A DNA stretch of 64,000 nt, taken from Neelides folsomi (Eukaryota > Arthropoda > Collembola > Neelipleona > Neelidae). Both the position numbers and the translations under genes were made by a program. Below the pieces are notes generated by a model that saw only the letters and a program-made list of their open reading frames with translations, was not told where the DNA came from and did no database searches. Shown piece by piece: positions 19,031 to 62,964 of this stretch (position 1 is its first letter; every line of letters begins with the position of its first letter). The stretch covers positions 1-64,000 of the forward strand of contig JAQGBZ010000308.1 of the NCBI GenBank assembly GCA_034687125.1, given 5' to 3'.

Positions 19031-20832
19031 CAATCGAGGAATTGCGTGGGAAGAACTGGGATTCGCCGGGCTTGGAGATTGAAACATTTTTCCTTTTCTC
19101 GGTGGGGTACTTTTTAGTAGACCTTTTATCATCCAACGCTTAGCTTCTTCATCTTTTGTTTATACATATATGGAATAAAATGAATAAATCATCGCGCCAC
19201 ATTCCTCCGTGCACGTTTCAATGAACAAAAACTCTTTCTTTTCATACATTTTCTCATTTTCTCCGCTTCCTGCAGCTGAACTGTGAAATGTGTTCAGTTT
19301 TCCAAACACTTCGGCATTTCCTTTTCAGATGTTTCGGGTGCCCTTCGTTCTCGACCTTCACGTTTAATTCCAAATTATGTCACGGCACGTAACCAAACAT
19401 CGGAGTAATACCAACATTTTCCAACCCCTTATACCTACTAACTAATATAAGCCCTAGTATTCTCGAGTAATTTATTTATTCTTTTAATGAAGAATAACAA
19501 TGTAATATGGGTAATATTACTAATGGTACTTATGAATACCAAAATTAAGGTATATAGCCATTCCAGATATTTAATTACATCTGTATTTATAATGGCTTTA
19601 TGCTTGGCATAAAGTAACTCATTGTATTATTTTCTAACTCATAATATTTTTCATCCAAGATATTTATTATAAGGCCTAAATAATAAAACATAATCAAAAT
19701 CTCATAAAAGCAAAAATGAAATATATTGCTAACACTAACTCATTCAGTCATTGAGAATAAAAGTGGTAAAGTCCCAGTATAGTCCTAAATGTCAAAAAGA
19801 ATGATTTATTACATAAAGACGATTTTGGAAGGAAGGATTGCCTATAATCTTTATATTCGAGTATCTTAAAATGAGGAAAACAAAAATAGGCACACTTAAA
19901 TTGTTGAATATCTACATTAAATGCGTTCTATCAGTATATCTACAAAGTTAATATTTAATATTAATTAAGTCAATATTTAATATAAAATATCTTCGAGCTT
20001 AAGTTCCCAACTTGACTACTTGTTACTCACTTGGAAAGGACCATTATCGGAGTTTGGGTATGTGTGGCACGAAGTAAAATGCTATTTTGCTATTACAAAG
20101 CACAGACATAAAAAACCATAAAACACTGAAGATAATGTAAAATAAATAAATACCAAATAGCTTGTGAAAGCTTGCTTGTGCTTGTGCTATGAAATAAACT
20201 TGTCAACTATCAATATGGTAAAGAAAGATAAAGATGTTTCATCCTCATGTTTTTACTTATTTTTCCAAAATTTGGTGCATTGCAGGAATTGGGTGATAGG
20301 GATAGTTTGATGATGAAGATGACCTTGTGAATCCTCTTCACTATTTATACCCCAAATCTCCTTTATACTTCTCATATTTCATTCATGAGATTACAACCAA
20401 GAACGAGATGAAGTCTCACAAGGTAAAACTTGATCACCAATACTTTCCTTTTATGCATCGCACATTTTCCCAGAAAAAAATAATCACATTCAAATATTCA
20501 AAACTAACCGTTTCTTCATAAATGTATATTTTATACATTATACTTAAATTGTAATCCTTCTTTTTCAAGCATCATTTAACCTATTAAACTATTAAATTAC
20601 CTTAATACCCTAAACCCCTATTGTCAATTCATATTTCTCATATTGAATATAAAATTTTTATTGCTATTTCCTTTCTATATATTTAATAAAAGTTTTGTAA
20701 AATCATCACATTAATTATTAATTGCCACCAAGGATAATTTTTACTATACAAAATTAAATGTAATTATTCCTGATTAAAGAAAGTTAAAATGAAAGAAAGC
20801 GGTGTTGAAAGCGAAAGTATCGTTTTCTCTGT
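19031..20832. other. intergenic region, no gene seen
   Basis: 1.8 kb between the presumed SV2-like promoter and the STT3B upstream region. The first 350 bp are relatively GC-rich and may be promoter; the rest is AT-rich and featureless to my eye. Confidence 0.5.
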
Positions 20833-20895
20833 TAAAGGATTGAAAATATCTCGCTAGGTGTGAGCGACACCTAGCGAGATATTTTCAATCCTTTA
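20833..20895. repeat. perfect 29-bp inverted repeat with 5-bp loop
   Basis: The left arm 20833-20861 begins TAAAGGATTGAAAATATC and ends CGCTAGGTGT. The right arm 20867-20895 is its exact reverse complement; the spacer is GAGCG. It lies 310 bp upstream of the STT3B start codon. No mismatch is present, which suggests recent origin, selection, or an artefact. Confidence 0.95.
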
Positions 20896-24646: not shown

Positions 24647-27009
24647 CCACTTAATTTAACTCTTCACAAATTCAATCAAACGGACAAGGTACAGAAAGAT
24701 GAAAGACCAATGGGTGTAATTGTGAAGAATTTGAGATTGTTAAAAAAACATCACTAATAATTGTGTACTGAAATAATGTATTTTAAGTTGACACCTTCAA
24801 TTTTGAAACAGAAAATTATGAAAATGTGATGATTAGGTAATACGTTATTGTTCGTTAATAGGACGTGGCAAATTAATTGTGTAGGGTAATTTCCTTCATT
24901 TATACACTATATAATATTTTACTCTTCCTTCTTATGTATAAATTATTCAGGTGGATTTATAAATTTTATATATTTAATTAGATTTCAATAATGTTTGACG
25001 TACAAAATTATTTAATTCCCGTATGTATAATTTTACAATCGTTGAATAAGCAATTACACATTCTTATACATTTACTATTTTACTTAAATGTTATACGTTA
25101 TTTATTGTTAAAATGTTAGAGTTGTATATTTATTGTTCTTGAAGGTGCACGTAGTAAATAAATCTCGACTACATTATGTGAACTTATAATCACAAATTGA
25201 CTACATTATGTATGAATATTTATGACTTTATTAGATTTATTATTTATAAATATTAGTTACTTAATTTTGAATGTGAATGTAAAAGATATTGATGATTTTA
25301 CATTCATATTCATATAAAGTTTTTAATTCTCAAAATTCAAATTTTGAAGGTTTGTTTCACACGTACTTCATTTGGAAAACCAACAACACTGCAAATATAA
25401 TTACTGTGATCCGATGTGAAACCAAAACAAAATATTTTATTTCAGTTATATTCATATACGAATTTTCAATGATATATATATTAGCAAGGAATATGTAGTA
25501 AATATTTAAGATTAGGCGTAGTGGTATTCGTAATTTAGTATTTTGTTTGAAAAGGACTTTATAATTTGGCCATACAATTAAAAAGTGTACATAATATAGT
25601 TGACTGTTTAAATAATGTCACTGGAAGTTTGTTTGTGCTATTTCCAATTCTTTAAATTTTGATAATTAAGACGAATGTTTAGGATTGGGCGTGTTTATTG
25701 CAAAAATGATGAATATACCAATAAATACATTGATAGCTTTAAGTGTTGGGATACATGAATGTGACATTTATATAAAAAATACATAAATAAATGATGTGTA
25801 TTTCATTATAAATATAAAAAATATAAATGAATAAAGAAACCTGCGATTAAAATTCTTATTTCACATCACCTATTCATTTTATAATCTAAAATTCAATGTA
25901 AATAAATATTTTAAGGCTAATTTCCGACGATGTAATGTTAAAGAAAAGTAACTCTTTGAGGCATTTACAATAAACTAATCAAAAAACTTCATCTACATTT
26001 TTTCTTCGTTTACTCGTCCTTTAACACATTTCCGAATAATTTTTACTTAAATGTTGCTTAATTGATCAGTAAGGACTTACAAACTGCGAGAATGAGCTTG
26101 TCTTTAGGTATCTTTTTCTAGTGATTTAAGGAATTATTTATATAGAGTTTATATACTCATTAAATAGGAAATTAACTATTGAAAAACATTTCCGAGATTA
26201 AAGATTGATTTAACTCACTGTTAATTATATATTGGAATAATTAACAAAATTGAGTCAATAATGGAGTCTTTAATTATTGTGTTATTCCATTTCACGTGTC
26301 CAAGGATCCATAGTGAATTATTAATTATTAAAGATGTTTAAAAATGCTCTTGAAGGGAAATTGTCAATTTATGTTCATTTTAATATTAAACCACATGAGC
26401 ATTTTAGAATATTTGTTAATAATTCGACTGGCATATGAACAGTTGATTGAAAAAGACAATACTACCAACCATTCCCCTTAATATTGTAGTTTGATTGGTG
26501 AAACTGCGAAACAAATAGAAATAATTTTTATAAATAGATATTTATCTAAAGGTACTTTAATTTAAATGAACGTTAAATATAAATAAAAGTATTTTGATGC
26601 ATTAACACATTCTATGGTTAATCTGATTAGTCAAAAATGTCTTAACTCGATGGCACAATTGACCTTGGAATGGTTTGACTATAAGTTTAATAAAAATGGA
26701 TTAACGTGGAGGGAGCGAAAGTAGGAGATTGAGATAAAATCTTCCAGCCATAGGGAAACTTTCGTTACGTACATTTTTCACCATTGGTCTATTTGAGCAA
26801 TTTTAATAGTTAATGCCCTATATGGGCCACAATAGTCAAGAAACCTTTCTTCCTTGCATGTTGGTGTGTTGTGTATATTAAAATTATTCCCATTCTTTCC
26901 CCTTCCTTACCATGAAATTATAAAGAAAGGATAATTATGGTATTTGAAAAGTATGCTCATTAAAAACCACGTAATAAGGGCGGCGTACCTGTATTATAAT
27001 AAACTAGTC
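24647..27009. other. STT3B 3' UTR and AT-rich intergenic region
   Basis: No gene was found. The first kilobase probably holds the STT3B 3' UTR (AATAAA near 25155). A 13-bp direct repeat, GACTACATTATGT, occurs at about 25168 and 25199. The rest is AT-rich without visible coding, RNA or transposon structure. Confidence 0.5.
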
Positions 27010-34180: not shown

Positions 34181-34423
34181 TATAGTATTGGAATCTTCAA
34201 TAAGTCATAATCAATGCCGATTACAATTTTTATTTTTTCGAATTTGTAATATTCTATTTACATGTAAATGTATATATCCTGGTTGATTTACTTATGGTTT
34301 GAAGTAAATCATAAATCTTTTATTTCCTTATATTACCAAAGATTAATGTATTTTTATATACTCGAAAAAAATAAAAATTGTAATCGGAATTGATCATAAC
34401 TTATTGAAGATTCCATTATATTA
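34181..34423. mobile_element. inverted-repeat MITE-like element
   Basis: Two arms of about 52 bp, 34190-34241 and 34362-34414, are inverted copies of each other with about three mismatches and one indel. They begin GGAATCTTCAATAAGT and run through CCGATTACAATTTTTATT. The centre holds a smaller inverted pair, ATTTACTT ... AAGTAAAT (about 34286-34309). Length about 240 bp, no coding capacity. The outermost bases are only loosely inverted, so the exact ends and target duplication are unclear. It lies 110 bp from the tRNA-like unit. Confidence 0.7.
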
Positions 34424-38638: not shown

Positions 38639-41600
38639 ATGTCACTCGAGCAGGCTTTGAGTCAAAAGCTGAGTTTAGATAATCACCAAGATTCCAGCGA
38701 AGCGTCAGGGCAGAGTGGAGGGCTGTCGTTGAGGAACATCGGTCGTCGTCACCAATCTCAGTCGCCTGTTCGAACTCCTGAAACGAGAGAAAATAACCAT
38801 TTGGCTACTCCTGCAAACGCCGGAAGTCCATGTCATTCCAATCGGTCGAGTAATTCGAAAAACGAAATTCCTCATCCAGGTCAAGGGGTCGAAAGAATTC
38901 CATCGGCAAAATCAACAAGAAGGATCTTTAACAATTGGCGATCCGCCTGTGGAAGGACAAAGGACAAAACGAAGGACTTTATAAGAAGGTATTTGAATCG
39001 AACTCAAACAGACATGCAGAGCCTTTAGTAATCATTTCCACTAATCAATTAACATTATTCACAAAATACTCAATCAAATCAATTCAAATAATTTAAAATA
39101 CACATACATTAGTAATATTTTAATACCAAGACGGTAAAAGACCAAAAGACAATAAAAAATCAATGTTTGTGAGCTCATTAGACTTTGGCTCAAATTGCTA
39201 TCTTAATGTGTTGTGGAACCGTCAAAGCAAACGGTTTTCCTCTGCTTAATCGAACCAACGCCTTTAAGAATTTGTCATAAATAACTCAATATTAAAACCT
39301 TACCTAACTCAATACATTTTAAAAAATACAAAGATTGAATACCTAACAAAGTTTTCCATATATCCTACTTACTATATTAAATACTGTCTTAATATGAGTC
39401 AACCATATGGACGCTTTGATACTTCAATGTGTGTATGAGAATGTGTAAGTCAAGTTTTGCCATAATCGTTGACGCAGTATGGTGCTAAAAGCTCACAGTG
39501 GCAACTTTACTGACGGCTTTGTAATCGAAACATCAATATTATTAATTGATTGAGGACGCTTAATTTAAAGTTTAAAAAATGAAGTTTGTCTGGGGAAAGA
39601 TGGAAAACTCTTCCGGAGAACCATCCTGATTTTGATCATCTCGTTTCCTCTTCGACACCGCCCCCACACGGGCACAATGGTCCCAATCACTCACCGGGCC
39701 AAGCAAAGGGGAAGTCGAAGTTTGGAAAGAAACACTCGGACCTTGAGATTAACGGCGGGCATTCAGAGGATCTTGGCTGTGGAGTTGGCGTCTCTGGCCC
39801 GGCCTCCATTAAAGAAAAATCTTCCGCAGGATGGTCGGTCCATGTTTGGGGTAAGACCTTTGTCAATATATCTTAATTTTCATTATCTCACAGTTCATGA
39901 GCACATACTTTACAATGAATAAGACATCCCAGGAGATCAAACCATAAGATATTGTCGATAATTCTCATATAAAAGTCACATTATTTTAAAGTATTCGTCG
40001 TAAGAATTTTATAGATCGTCGTGACTTTTAGTGGCCTTATTTTGAACAGTGGCAAATTAAGAGTTAAGACTTTTTATTAACATTTTAAATAATTAATTCG
40101 ATTTAATTTCCACACTTGAATTTACGAATTTTGCTATCTGGGGAGTCGACCATGCAATTGATATTCATTTGAATTAAATTATCAAAAGGTCGAAGTATCT
40201 TTCAGAATCGTAAATTGGCCAAAGACGTAAACACGTTTTTTCCCAATTGCGAGGATCGGGGAAGAGATGAGCTCGAGAATAAAGAATTTAAAAAGTATCA
40301 AGTTGCTTACTCCGAAATAAATATTAATGTTTGGGAGGAATGGGGAAAATAAGGATGCGGATCTTGTATGGGAAAACCTCCTACCCCAGAGGCTTCTTTT
40401 CTTGGCGATCTGAAATTAAAATCTCGTATAGGCAGAACGAGGCAAAACTAAATGTCCTCTATGAGCAGATGAGGATTAAAGATTAAATCCTCCATCTTTC
40501 CAAAATTCTTCATGCGTCTAAATACCTTACTTACCTTTATGTAACTTAATGCTATTTTTCCTTAACCTTTATGGACTTTACTATGTAACTCCTGTGCAAG
40601 TTTAATGAGAATACAAACACCCTCGAAATATCAATAAAATGAAACTAAAGATGGATTCAGACAGGGCGTTGGTGACGCGACGTAATTTACGTGGCCTAGT
40701 TTAAAACGTTTCAACAACCAGGCGTCAAAACATCATATTGTTCAGACAGTAGTCGCCAACTCCACGTTGCTAAACACAATAAACGTCAATAACAAAGTTG
40801 AGTTATTTTAATTTGGTTGTCTACCTGCATTTCACGTTTTTGACGAGGCGTTGGTGACGAGAGAGGTGTAGTGTGAACACTCGGGATTTCGCGTAAATTA
40901 CTCCAAGTGATTTACGGCTCCATATGTATTGCTCGAAAAATATTTTGCTCGAAACATAAATTGCTCGAAGAATAAAATGCTCGAAACAAAGTGTTCGAAG
41001 AATATAATGCTCGAAACACAATAAGCTAAATGAATGTATTGCTCGAAGCATAATAAGCTCGAAGATATAAAATATCTAAATGTCATTTGCTATAATATAC
41101 ATTAGCTCGAACATGAAAATGATCTAATATGCAAGTTGATTTTTCGGTATTCTTACAGGTAGATATTCTTAATATATTTGTAATCTTCCGTTCCTCCCAA
41201 TTCCACACATTCGGTTTCAGAGACAACTGGTTCTGTAAATATTCCGGGCAGTCGATGATTTTTTTCTAAAGATTGCTTTCTTTTTTTCTTCTAAGTTTTG
41301 AAAATTTGGTATTTTTGGAACATTTTGATTTACTTTCTTTATTGGAATTAATTGAAGAGGAATTAAAAGCTTCTTCAATTTCCTTCTGCGTGAGATCTTT
41401 GAGTTTTTTGATCCTCAAAGTGGAATTATTTCTCATTGCTTCCATTAATAATGAATTTAATCATACCTTTACAAACATCTCGTCGAATCTATTGCACATT
41501 TCTCAACATTTATTTTCCCATTTTTAATTTTATTGATTCGTAATGGCTGTGAATTATTTTCGAGCATATTCACTTTCGAGCTATAATCGTTCGAGATTTT

Positions 41601-44600
41601 TGTATTTTCGAGGACAATTTTTTCGAGATTTTGACAATCGAGCAATATAATCTTCGAGAAATTTATGTTTCGAGCATTAAATGTTTCGAGAAATTTGTTT
41701 AGAGCAGAAAAATTTCGAGCAATTTGTCTTCGAGCAATTTATGTTTAGAGCAATTAATTTTCGAGCATTCATACGGGTGCCGTGATTTACGCTTCGTAAA
41801 CAACCAGGCTTCGTTGACGCGCAATGCTGGTGTGAACACTCTCACGTAAATTATTTGAGGTGAACAACGTCCTGTCTGAACGCACCTTAAACCTCGTCCA
41901 ATTACGTCCACTTTACCATATAAAATACCTACCATTAAGAATGCTCCCTTTACAATATTCTAAAATAGTTAGTTGAATAAATAACTACTTTATTATAAAT
42001 TCATATTAAACAACATTGTTAATTTAATATTAAAAGCCTGTTGGCAATTTAGGGATAATACCCAATTAATTTTCTTTGTAGATTGTCATCAAACCTGGGC
42101 AATAATTATAGCATGGCCCTTGGTGGATTATCATAAATAAACCAATTCATTATAAATATTAATTTGTCCCTAGAAAAGCCTTAATTAAGAATCTTTAATG
42201 GAAAGTAAATACGGGAAAGTTGGGGAATATTTAAGGGAGAGAAAGTAAAGTGAAGGGAAAGGAAAATAGGGTCATTCTGTTATCTTTGTGAAATGAGACA
42301 TTGGGATTGGTCACGTGGTACTCGTCTAAAATGCATGGGATTTTCTTATAACACAAAAACGGTAGCCCGTAGGGTCCAAATGTTAATGGGATATGAAAGA
42401 TATCCAAAAAACAATTCAAAAAACTTTGATTTTGGATCCTACCTAGTGCCGTTTTTTAACTAGCTAATTGTTTTTAAATTAATGAATAGGGATGCGAAAT
42501 ATATTAACGGAACCCTGTGCGCGGATTTTAAGTTTTGGGGGAATATGCGACATTGTCGGAGTTTTTTTTATTTTACAAAGATAACAGAATGACCCAATAG
42601 CAAGGAAAAGTAAAAGTGAAAATAAATAAAGTTAAATTAATTTATCAAACTTTTTATCAATATTTTTAATGGGAAAAGGGGAAATAAAAGAGGAAATTAA
42701 GTTGACGGGTTGAGGGGTTTAATAATGAGCCGGGAGAGATATTGGGATGGAAAGGTTTTTGAAAGACCTCTTACAACTTCGTCCCTTATGATATGATTAA
42801 ACTCCTTCATGAGAAGGAACTTTGGGAATTCATCAGGAATGCAGACCCCCATTTGGATAAGGGGGAATGGCATGGATCGTTACTTCCCATGAAAGAATAA
42901 ATTTCTCTCCTCTTTAAACTTTACTCCGAAGGTTAATTACCAATTCAACTCTCAGGCTTTAGTTAATGTTTACAAAATAAAAATGATGGAGATGCTGGTT
43001 GAATTTTTACAATGAATTATATTCTTACTTAAGATTTTCAGAAAGATTTAAATTCATTATATGATGTCATTCTATTTAAAATTATAATATAATTAAATTA
43101 AATTAAGGCCCTAAAATTAGATTTAACAGTCTCTTTTCTAGAACCACGCAATAAAGATTTCTCTTTCTTTCCCTATTGCCTATTGGTTTGGATCATTTGA
43201 ATGTATGGAATTTAATAGGAGGAATTGATTTCTTATTTCTAGCCACTTATGTTCAGAGAGGAGCTGACGAGGACGAAATAACAAACGAAGAAGTTACCCT
43301 TGGACGAGATCTTCTCTCAGATTTCCAAAGGGTTAAATTGATACATTTCCTTTGCCATGTTCTGGATATGAACCATGACGGTGTGATTTCGGCTGAAGAT
43401 TTTGTCGCATTAAATCAGGTGAGAAAAGCCTTTTTTCAATTTGTTCCTTTCAATGACAAATTTCTGAACAAACGTGTGTTGAATTTTAAATCCTTTATAA
43501 TACGAAAAAACATTCATACATGAAATGATATACCTGTATTTTTAAATAAATAACATATGTTATATTGCATAAAAGGATAACAATTTGGGTAAATCAACAC
43601 GTACATTGTACTTTACAAGTATGCTATACAAGCTATACAAAAATATTATGGTATACCAAAGTTCATAAGAATATACTATACTTAACATACTCTCATCAAT
43701 TATTTATCAAATATTATTTTTAAACTCAAAACACATTTTTTTAATCATTTTAAAACCTTTTAAGCCTTTTTGTGTTTTAATTTTTATTGATCTAAATAAG
43801 TAGCATGTAAAGATGTATTTGTGAAATTTCATATTTATAAATAAAATTAAATGAGGATTGAGAATTAAGCTTTAGTTAACAATAAGCTTTCATTTCTACA
43901 TAGTATTTATTATGTAATACACCCTCATACTACCTGTAAATATACTCCAAATGCTTAAATGATAATCCTCTGGGAAGGGGGACAGAGGACAAAGGTTATT
44001 TGGAAAAATTTATAAAAATACTCATTTGTTTAATATATTTGTGGTCAATCATTAACATTTAGTTATCCCAGTAGAATAGAGCCAAATTCAAAGCATCGTC
44101 TGTCAAGAAATAATTATCATTGAATATTACAATGAATTTAATTTGTTTATTCTGTATGAAGCATTTTGGAATTAGAAGTTTGTTAGAAAAGCACATAAGA
44201 ACCCACACTAGACCCTATAACTGAGAGTATTCACTTAGTATACCTAATAGGACTTCTATATTAAAAATATTTTAAATTTTATTTTATTTTTTAAATTAAT
44301 ACTATGGAATGAAATTTAAATGCTTTTTATATGAAATCAATAGATTTTGACATTAAATATGCATTTTATTCTGACTGAAAAGAAAAACATTCTAGAAGCA
44401 TTAGATTCTTTATAAAGTATTAGTTGGTATTAAGTATGTATGTAGATGAAAGAACAGTACAATAATATAATATGACAATGATCAAAATACGTAACTTAAA
44501 AATGAATCTTCATAAAGGTGAATTCGTTGGAATATCTGGAAATAAAATGAATTACCTTACCTAAACATTCCTTATAAAAATTCTATACAAATGCAAACAC

Positions 44601-47600
44601 TGTGAATATTCTAGCAAACAGAAAGAAGATTTAAACAACCATATGAAAAGACACTCCTGAAAAAAACCAGTCTAATACAAAATTTAACGTTTGTTCGATT
44701 GTACTCGTATTAAGCTGTTATTAAGGGGGAATTCCAGTCGCCATGTCAGTATTGTCTTTTCGACCAACTGTCCATGTGCGAGTCGAATTAAAAAATATTC
44801 TAAAATGCTCATTTTGGGAGATGAAATGTATTTGAAGTTTTTTGATAACTTTAGTGTAAAAGCCTCAGTCGATTCCGTAAGATACATTTAGAGGGATAGG
44901 GCTTGTTCTAATTCAACCTTAATTGTAGTTTGGATTTATTAACATGTGATTAATAAATTCAAATCTTGAAAATAATATTTTTTTAAATTCCAACATAAAT
45001 TGTTGGACTAAAAAGTAAAGTGAAGCGAGTGAAAGTTTGAGTGTTTAATTTGATTTGAAATGGTTTTTTTTTCAATTTCTTTAGACTCATTTTTCTTTTG
45101 TTGTAATTGTTGAGTGGTTGATGTGAAGTTCCCTGGTGAGGAATCCATTTGAGAAATCCCATTTTTCCACTCCCAAGAATGGCCCCGCAGTGGGTGGGGA
45201 ATTAGAGGAAATAAATGAGACTACCTTGTCCCCACACTATTTTTCTTCCTCAAACCTCCATGTGGGTAAATGGATCAGACTCACATCCCACTTCTAAAGA
45301 AACTTTCTTAAATAGACAGGAAGTGAAAGTGTACAGATGAGGCTCCAGAGGCCACAACACTTTTACATACAAAACTATACTATCTTTTGGTCAAAGTTTT
45401 CCAAGTAATTCTCCTATCTAAATTCCAAACTTACATCTATTATAGCTACAATGTACAACTAGTGTAGTACTCTATAGTGTACGTGCAGCATGTTGAGGAT
45501 GTTTATGCTCCAAACTGATACAACAACAAATACAATAAAGTTATAAATTGAGATATGTCAAACCAAGAATTTGGCTAAAAGCAAGAAGTAAAAAGTAAAA
45601 GTATTGGAATAATTCACAAGCATGTTTTATTGTATGTTAAATATTCACAAATCTTGTATTATTGATTGTGGATTGTAAGAGATGAGAAAACAAATTGACA
45701 GATTCGCCTTCGTGGAAAGATGTTCAGAAGAAAGTGATTGAGGAATATTCCCTGGAGGGTTAAATTAGTTTCCTTCCAATTCCCTGACATTAGCAATAAA
45801 GGAGAAAGAGAAGAGAGGACGAGCACAACATTAGGAGAGGGTTTAATGAAGCCATCGGTACTTCTGGTCCAACGCCTGAAGCATTCAAGACATCGAGGTC
45901 TTTCATGTGGTCATTCCCACTTATTGGAACTTTCATGTACTGACGCAAATGAGCCATGTAATTTATTTAATTATCTCCACCGGAAATGTTGCTTTCAAAC
46001 GGATGAACTTTTACCCCAAATTCATAAATTCAATTCAATTTCCTTTCAAAATCATAATTAAGTGATGACTGTAGATAATAAATACCTATTTCTCATTTGT
46101 TTATAATTCTAAATGTGTTCATTTCCAGTTTGTTTCTATTCAATTTCCCTTTATACATATTTAAATATGATACTGTATTAAAACACGTTATGAAACTTAA
46201 GGTAATTTATTTAACATCATGATGGTAAAATTAAAATCCGGTGTAAAGTTATATCGTTACAAAAAGTGTTCCAGCTCACAGGAAGAATATAAATTTTGAA
46301 GATGGGAGTTTGGTAAATATATTTAGTTTTAAGTGAGTGTGAGGGATAGAGATTAAGAGTTGAAAAAGTGAAAGATGAAAGTAATTTGAGTAAGGTTAAT
46401 GGCTGGAGATGGTCGTAACTTCCCCACTTTCACCCTCCGTAAATCTTACAATTTTAGTTCCAATGGAGTTCCTTCCCAAGTCTCTCTTGGGTTTGGGTTG
46501 TGACAGGATGGGGGGTTTCCGGCTACACACCTCAAGACACATTGGTCCGGTTTCTTCCTCGGCTATTAAATAAACGAATGAGGGAAATGACACTCGAGGC
46601 TCAACTTGGTTCAAGAGCCATCAATTTCTCATTGCGTTTAATGTGAATTTACATGCTCTTCACGGAGCATGGAGGGAGGAACTCTGTTTGACACTCGTGA
46701 AATAGGGGAAATGTAGATCCCTCATTCATTTCCGTTACAAACCGACTACACACGGTCTTTACACAATTTCTTTTTAACCTCTTTTCATCTTCAAATGCTC
46801 AAATGACATTAAATGAGAAATGAAAAGAATTCATATAAAGGACATAAAAGAAATGTTTTCAAATATGTACTTAAGACCGTAAAAGGTAGTATTAAACATT
46901 TTTATTATGTTTTTTGAAATACCTAGTCGTGAAATATGATCAATGTTAATCAATTTCCCGAGTGGAATTTTGGAATTTTTGGAAATTCAAAATTATAAGA
47001 AAATTTTTTGGAAAATTTTGAAAGTTTATTCAGTTAATAAAAATCTGATTAGATCACTTGATAAGATAAATAAGTATGTTACATTAAGAATTCTTAGCAG
47101 GACAAGGTTTATCTGGAACATTAAAATCTTAATGTTGTAAAATTCCTGAGCTGTGATGCCTTTATGCGGATCTAAGTTTAAAAAATTTTCTTACGCCAGT
47201 GAATAAAAGATGAGATTGGAAGTTTGAATAAAAGTCTTTCATCTTTTCATATACTAGATTACTTATTATTTATTCATGTTTGGATATTACACGTGCTGTT
47301 TGTATTTGTAATCGCGTGTCCCGGAGTGAGCCACGTTGAAAGAGAACATTTTTTATCTTTTACATCTTTTGTGCTCTAAACAAATTTTTGTAACTAGTAA
47401 TTAAATATGACTATACTCTTGAATATAGTAAATAGCTAATGATTTCAATAAGATAAAACAATATTAGAATAACACGCGACAATATTTATCTTCCATTTAG
47501 ATTACATATATGACATACTGTAGTAATCTTAACTTGGTTTAGGGTAATTAAAATTTAATATAAAAGAAAGTAGAAAAAGTTTTATCTTTTATGGAATCTA

Positions 47601-61383: not shown

Positions 61384-62964
61384 ATGAGTTTGCAAATAAA
61401 AATAACTTTTAAAGGCAAAGAATCTAAAACCTTTCTACCTGGAGATCTTATTCAGGGATATGTGATTGTGACGTCTATTACAAATATGAAAATTAAAGGT
61501 AGATTAATACAAAGCTGAATAATTCTTACAATCAATTTAGATTTATAAATAAAGATATTAATCATTGTTAATTTATAGGTCTTAAAGTTCATTTTGAGGG
61601 ATTAGGGAAAGTTCAGTTCTCTGAGAAAGAAGGTGAACTTCTATCTTTAAAAGGAATCTCTTCAAATCATTTGACCAATGGATATAAATCGATTGACATC
61701 AATCAAAGATCTACGATTTTGTCAAATCAAACACGAGAATATTATCGTGAAGAAAAATATCTTGAGAGTTGTATTCTCATTCTTCCAAAATGTAAACCAT
61801 ATTTTAGTAACTTCTAATTTCTAAATTTTCTAAATATTAAACTTACTTATTAAAGATCATAAACATTATCTTTTAAGGCGAACACGAAAGTGATTTTAAT
61901 TTGAAAGAAGGGCGTTGGGAATTTCCATTTGAGTTCAAACTTCCTATTGGACTTCCACCTTCATTCCAAGGAACTTGCGGATCTGTCACTTATTCAATTC
62001 GAATCCAATGTGTCTTAAACTCATTTGAAAATAAATACGAGGGCCCAAATGATTTTGAGAAAAGAGAACGGTTCTATGTTGGTGCAATGTTGGATTTAAG
62101 ATCTGGAGCATTGTTGGAAGAATCTTCTGTTTGGAGAAGCAAATCTGTAGGCTTTTGCCAGTGTTGGAACAAAGGAAACGTTGAAATGACAATTAGATTG
62201 AGCCGAAACGGCTTTATTTCCGGCGACTATTTGCCAATCATTGCGGAATTCACGAACAACACAAGATATTACTTTCAAGCTTCAATGGTTTTAAAACAGG
62301 TGAGTTCAGTGTTTAATATATCTTCGTTAATTATGTTAGTACAGGGTGAACCATAAGTAACGCATTATGCATTAAAACGGTATAGTTACTACATATGTAC
62401 TATATCCATCGTGCGTTACTTATGGTTCATTCTGTATATAACAATGTTTAAATTAACTTAAAGTATAATTATAACAAATTGAATTTGGCATAAAGGAAAC
62501 ATTATATCACGGAATTGGGAAGACGAGAAAAGAAAAGCAAATTGTAAAGGAAATTAATGGGCAGTTAATTACTCCAGGAGAAAGTGATCTTTGGGAAGGG
62601 CAATTTTTTCTCATTCCAAGTGTATCCCCAACAAATATTGGAAGGTGTAAAATCATTGAAGTAACTTACAAATTAAAGGTATGCAGTTGAATAAAAATTT
62701 AAATAGTTCCGTAACTCACGTTTATGATATACTATGGTTGTTTATGAATACTTCGTATTTAAAAATTTACACATTAGTATTTTAGAATTATGGGTAGGTA
62801 TGATTTGTACTAAAATTAATTTATCTACAATGAATATTGAAAGACAAAATTTTAATTCAAAATGCTCATTTATTTTTTGTTTATAGGCAAAAATGACAAT
62901 GGACTCAACACCAAAAAATGCAAAGTTAAAAGTATATTTGCCCATTGTGATTGGTAGCATGTAA
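61384..62964 (+). CDS. arrestin domain-containing protein (alpha-arrestin, ARRDC-like)
   Basis: Five exons: 61384-61498, 61579-61791, 61878-62299, 62496-62678 and 62887-62964 (TAA); 336 residues, phases fit. The arrestin-N domain opens with FLPGDLIQGYVIVTS and GLKVHFEGLGKV and carries the family signature WEFPFEFKLPIGLPPSFQGT and GSVTYSIRIQCVLNS. The arrestin-C domain has RLSRNGFISGDYLPIIAEF, EIVK-type strands and ends KVYLPIVIGSM, the conserved last strand. Alpha-arrestins are adaptors that bring Nedd4-type ubiquitin ligases to membrane receptors and also influence metabolism (TXNIP branch). Those usually have PPxY motifs in a tail after the arrestin-C domain; this protein stops right at the domain end, and no PPxY is visible. 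Intron 3 contains a 93-bp MITE. The gene converges with the nucleoporin gene. Confidence 0.9.
62342..62434. mobile_element. 93-bp mariner-like MITE in an ARRDC-like intron
   Basis: Terminal inverted repeats of 23 bp: left CAGGGTGAACCATAAGTAAC from 62342, right its inverse ending at 62434, 21 of 23 positions identical. TA dinucleotides flank both ends (62340-62341 and 62435-62436), the target duplication of the Tc1/mariner superfamily. It lies 42 bp inside intron 3, well away from the acceptor. There is no coding capacity. The near-identical arms indicate a young insertion. Confidence 0.85.

Follow-up and report, generated by a model that had tools for sequence, protein, structure and literature searches.

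Simple transposons are believed to have acquired foldback ends on several occasions, as arrays of transposase sites grew. In Aedes aegypti, the Mutator-like element Muta1 carries a 10-bp terminal motif and nine 12-bp repeats separated by 3-4-bp spacers, giving a period of 15-16 bp, and the subterminal repeat of Muta5 is 15 bp long; both elements have many non-autonomous derivatives with variable interiors (PMC5225508). Tm1, a Mutator/Foldback element of root-knot nematodes, has composite terminal inverted repeats (TIRs) containing one to nine tandem units of about 14 bp (PMC3169594). For Galileo, a member of the P superfamily in Drosophila, several transposase binding sites per end have been shown biochemically (PMC3688188). 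The PIF/Harbinger subfamily MtPH-A6-4 of Medicago generates a 3-bp TAA/TTA duplication, and some of its members carry opposed tandem repeats at both ends; the study describing it also defined the PIF/Harbinger TIR motif G(N)5GTT (PMC2213677).

The locus described here lies in an AT-rich window (about 32% GC), the window being the whole 64-kb stretch of DNA that was analyzed. Positions 40649-41887 (1,239 bp) probably represent an old DNA transposon of the foldback type, a single non-autonomous copy in an animal genome. From the outside inward, each end consists of TAA, a TIR, a GC-richer flanking domain and an array of short tandem repeats, with a middle domain of about 415 bp between the two arrays. 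GC content falls from 43-49% in the ends to about 29-30% in the arrays and core, and the arms can be aligned from their outer edge (CGGCWCCRTATG) through to their inner edge (TAGCTCGAA...). Inverted terminal arms with opposed short tandem repeats characterize the foldback-like class, and the inverted ends and opposed 16-bp arrays found here uphold the foldback-like architecture proposed in a preliminary description of this DNA; the limits given there, 40650-41886, enclose essentially the same element but are better placed as above. The architecture is a known but uncommon transposon design; elements built in this way have been described before (Foldback, Tetris, Tm1, Muta1, Galileo), so the present one does not represent a novel kind.

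The common sequence of the inverted ends, already noticed in that description, is part of an imperfect 46-nt inverted pair (40648-40693 and 41843-41888, 76% complementary) whose core, TTCAGACAGG, is present at both ends, at 40656 on the plus strand and at 41871-41880 on the minus strand, and has no further exact match in the window. Local alignment of the TIRs scored 37, whereas none of 300 first-order Markov control sequences scored above 26. The left TIR (AGATGGATTCAGACAGGGCGTTG...TAATTTACGTG) occupies 40649-40693 on the plus strand, and the right TIR, read on the minus strand as AGGTGCGTTCAGACAGGACGTTG...TAATTTACGTG, occupies 41843-41887.

The left array (40930-41136, plus strand) comprises 13 positions of a unit of about 16 bp with a consensus of about TGCTCGAARMATAAAT, and the right array (41552-41766, minus strand) 14 positions of the same unit, unit positions having been counted by hand; TRF delimits tandem repeats at 40928-41070 and 41638-41767. 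Their opposed orientation is evident from the exact GCTCGAA counts on the plus and minus strands, which are 8:0 in the left array, 0:6 in the right array and 0:0 in the core, with four further copies outside the element in the 64 kb. TCGA reaches densities of 9 and 11 per 200 bp within the element and at most 4 anywhere outside it, with phase concentrations of 0.92 for a 16-bp period in the left array and 0.95 for a 15.5-bp period in the right array. The CGA core, earlier taken to be invariant, is common but not invariant, surviving in 21 of 27 units (9/13 left, 12/14 right, all within TCGA). The four decayed left units (41025, 41073, 41089 and 41121; CTAAAT, CTATAA, ATCTAA) remain in 16-bp phase, which indicates that units have decayed mainly by substitution; spacing in the right array varies from 14 to 17 bp. 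A unit-by-unit register of the two arrays is only weakly supported, as 7% of permutations of unit order score equally well, and this counts against the transposon reading. Other unit-like BLAST matches, at 19975 and 47367, are isolated and lie outside any array.

The flanking domains, TIRs included, measure about 280 bp on the left and about 115-120 bp on the right, at 43-49% GC. They share motifs in direct orientation (GTGTGAACACTC, AACAACCAGGC, CGTAAATTA) and in inverted orientation (GTTCAGACAG, TAATTTACGTG), and the only exact matches in the window to a 10-bp motif, CGTAAATYAC, four in number, fall within the flanks of the element. The inner left domain (40871-40927, plus strand) contains GTGTGAACACTC, CGTAAATTAC (40892) and, adjoining the array, GTGATTTACGGCTCCATATG; it is repeated at the right end both directly (GTGTGAACACTC at 41830, CGTAAATTA at 41845) and, next to the array, in inverted form. 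The right flanking domain (41767-41842, minus strand) contains CGTAAATCAC (41782) and the copy of GTGTGAACACTC at 41830. The duplication previously seen on the left is present as a 13-bp direct repeat, GGCGTTGGTGACG, at 40665-40677 and 40847-40859, 182 bp apart. The block that it bounds (40665-40859, plus strand) carries end-like motifs, among them a second TTCAGACAG (40741) and AACAACCAGGC (40713), and this suggests that the extra length on the left represents a duplicated and rearranged end.

Arm shuffling and nesting had both been offered as explanations for this duplication, and it is the rearranged arm that fits the repeat-bounded block. On a nested reading of the whole locus, a foldback element at 40883-41829 would have inserted into an outer short-TIR element with TTCAGACAGG ends, GTGTGAACACTC being the target duplication. 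This sequence does form an exact 12-bp direct repeat (40871 and 41830) surrounding the arrays, but direct similarity runs beyond it on both sides (GGC...GTTG..GACG upstream, CGTAAATTA and GTGA downstream), so that it belongs to a more extensive end module that has been duplicated, which is unlike a clean target duplication. Its 12 bp would also be long next to known target duplications, and the supposed inner ends, GGGATTTCGCG and CAGCATTGCGCG, match poorly. Nested insertion was accordingly rejected as less likely, and we regard it as the most improbable of the readings entertained here.

The middle domain (41137-41551, 30% GC) corresponds to the core expected between the arrays, at about 415 bp where 430 bp had been estimated. 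No Pfam family, transposases included, scored above cutoff in the middle-domain open reading frames and frames scanned, no PDB relative was found for its 64-aa open reading frame, and its longest stop-free run (85 aa) is not unusual against a simulated mean of 65 (P 0.12); this copy is thus non-autonomous or decayed. On the minus strand, 41156-41460 reads like a pair of lysine-rich coding pieces that adjoin but differ in frame. It is possibly a decayed or captured gene fragment; Pfam and PDB searches returned no relative and nothing supporting gene status.

With boundaries scanned from 14 bp outside the TIR core to 5 bp inside it, the single exact flanking match of at least 3 bp at symmetric offsets is TAA, at 40646-40648 and 41888-41890. 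A 3-bp TAA/TTA duplication is typical of PIF/Harbinger elements, and this symmetric TAA agrees with it but is weak evidence. Over 15 symmetric offsets, chance alone yields a TAA/TTA (TWA) match in about 4% of pairs of random sites and a match of any 3 bp in 29%, and at these rates the TAA is no more than suggestive of a target-site duplication. With this duplication, the right TIR would start AGGTGCGTTCAGACAGG and, reading AGGTGCGTT, has GTT at positions 7-9; it agrees in part with the plant-defined motif G(N)5GTT, but the first base is A instead of G and positions 7-9 of the left TIR are ATT (PMC2213677). Over the same range of boundaries, no direct repeat of 8-10 bp was found, even with one mismatch allowed; a wider scan yielded one 8-mer, asymmetric and more than 35 bp outside. 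Elements of the P superfamily duplicate 7 bp of target, and no exact 7-bp flanking match occurs at the boundaries scanned.

On the TAA duplication and the GTT at TIR positions 7-9, a PIF/Harbinger-type transposase is tentatively favored as the single most likely mover, at rather less than even probability. MtPH-A6-4 resembles the present element in having TAA flanks and, in some members, opposed subterminal arrays, and differs in its plant host and 60-bp units (triplicated AAACNNCTTATT), as against an animal host and 16-bp units (PMC2213677). That an animal PIF/Harbinger lineage independently evolved foldback ends, with some 13-14 inverted 16-bp transposase sites per end and a second subterminal motif, is a more speculative proposition, which we hold to be unlikely as it stands; if true, elements using another transposase would have converged on the foldback ends of the Mutator type.

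The next likeliest mover is a transposase of the Mutator/Phantom type, for which we see only a minor chance. The element would then be a foldback MULE like Muta1, Tm1 or Tetris, whose 8-9-bp target duplication has decayed or whose true boundaries lie elsewhere, an explanation that we likewise consider doubtful. Mutator foldback elements offer the best match in unit period (15-16 bp), in the number of units per end (nine in Muta1, up to nine in Tm1) and in their distribution among arthropods. Subterminal tandem repeats of 9-15 bp occur in 10 of 12 long-TIR MULE families of Aedes aegypti (PMC5225508), and most foldback elements are thought to belong to the Mutator superfamily (PMC4079207). In Muta1 and Muta5, as in the present element, short subterminal repeats form inverted arrays on the inner side of a terminal motif, a likeness of architecture; their arrays are almost terminal, within TIRs of 145-151 bp, whereas here a flanking domain of about 115-280 bp comes first, and the 8-9-bp target duplications that they generate have no counterpart here (PMC5225508). 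Tm1 is similar in its opposed units, in the unequal unit numbers of its two ends and, in many copies, in its coding-free interior, but neither its unit (CGATTCAGTATCCGC), its asymmetric 7-bp outer motifs nor its 9-bp target duplication was seen (PMC3169594). Tetris, a foldback element of Drosophila virilis, has the same succession of flanking, tandem-repeat and ORF-less middle domains and no known autonomous partner; unlike the present element, it has repeat units of about 220 bp, possesses an inner domain and duplicates 8-10 bp of target (PMC4079207). Against a MULE origin stands the lack of any 8-9-bp duplication at this copy over the boundaries scanned.

Whichever superfamily supplied it, a transposase encoded elsewhere in the genome would act in trans and cut at the AGRTGSRTTCAGACAGG termini, while its DNA-binding domain would dock on the subterminal GCTCGAA sites, repeated every 16 bp or so, and on the CGTAAATYAC sites. 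Docking on repeated sites would promote end-specific synapsis. Because 16 bp corresponds to about 1.5 helical turns, each site would face the opposite side of the DNA from the one before it. That the arrays are putative multi-site transposase-binding ends is a reasonable inference from the precedent of Galileo (PMC3688188). Galileo likewise has internally repetitive terminal arms, and binding at the present element is proposed by analogy only; its TIRs exceed 1 kb, their repeats being long and their THAP sites few, in contrast to the short units at 16-bp spacing found here (PMC3688188). Slippage, unequal exchange between copies of the repeat or gap repair that was abortive could subsequently alter unit number and flanking domains, as described for other transposons that carry repeats (PMC3169594; PMC2213677); the rearrangement of the left arm and the difference in unit number between the ends would fit such processes.

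Both the repeat unit and the termini are unlike the sequences quoted for Tm1 and for MtPH-A6-4. A text search of papers for the end sequences returned none on such elements, as judged by title and abstract, and by that search and published descriptions we could not match the ends and repeat units to any described family. An Rfam scan of the window gave no match. In viral contigs the TIR pattern had one match, in a GC-rich sequence with none of the array features, and the array pattern also had one, a 54%-GC repeat; both are unrelated, and a search of the same contigs for an AT-rich unit pair found none. The 118 stretches of prokaryote genomes matching the array pattern, mostly 8-bp or GC-rich tandem repeats, are unrelated as well, and the sole plasmid match, of 29 bp, is due to chance.

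This one copy was examined, and no second copy of the element occurs within the 64-kb window. That would suit a non-transposon origin, either as an intergenic minisatellite with a local inverted duplication or as a regulatory cluster for a TCGA-binding factor; arrays of short sites can also grow by slippage, and bacterial genomes contain many unrelated GCTCGAA arrays. Such an origin leaves the separate TIRs, the TAA flanks, the step in base composition and the end-confined second motif unexplained, and is given little credence. Taken as a foldback-type transposon, a single decayed copy has mainly annotation value. A family with such clean, evenly spaced 16-bp units would be well suited to testing whether arrays act as multi-site binding platforms and, should the TAA duplication hold across copies, would add one more superfamily with foldback ends.

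The element is bordered on one side by a region of open reading frames without assigned identity (about 38.6-39.9 kb) and on the other by a likely EF-hand exon (43155-43520), its surroundings having been scanned against Pfam as single open reading frames. One interrupted open reading frame in the window is Smad4 (MH2 domain, E 1e-42; best PDB matches SMAD4), and others encode a Nanos zinc finger, CutC and arrestin; such gene content indicates an animal, probably an arthropod. Some 380 bp downstream of the element lies a MITE-like element of about 330 bp (42266-42598) with near-perfect inverted ends of about 29 nt (GGGTCATTCTGTTATCTTTGT) and a possible flanking 4-bp repeat, AATA; a search of viral contigs for its TIR gave no match. 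A palindromic MITE-like sequence of about 230 bp at 34186-34418 has 53-nt arms that are 92% complementary and is possibly TA-flanked. The hairpin at 20833-20895 (TAAAGGATTGAAAATATCTCGCTAGGTGT...), whose 29-bp stem encloses a loop of 5 nt, is unusual in being perfect and is a candidate minimal MITE or hairpin RNA source. The inverted repeat of about 97 bp at 62340-62436, starting TACAGGGTGAACCATAAGTAACGCA, is one that we take to resemble a mariner-type MITE with TA flanks. Finally, a diverged repeat is present as two inverted copies (25957-26463 and 44748-44867), each made up of two blocks, with 86% identity and a differing distance between the blocks.
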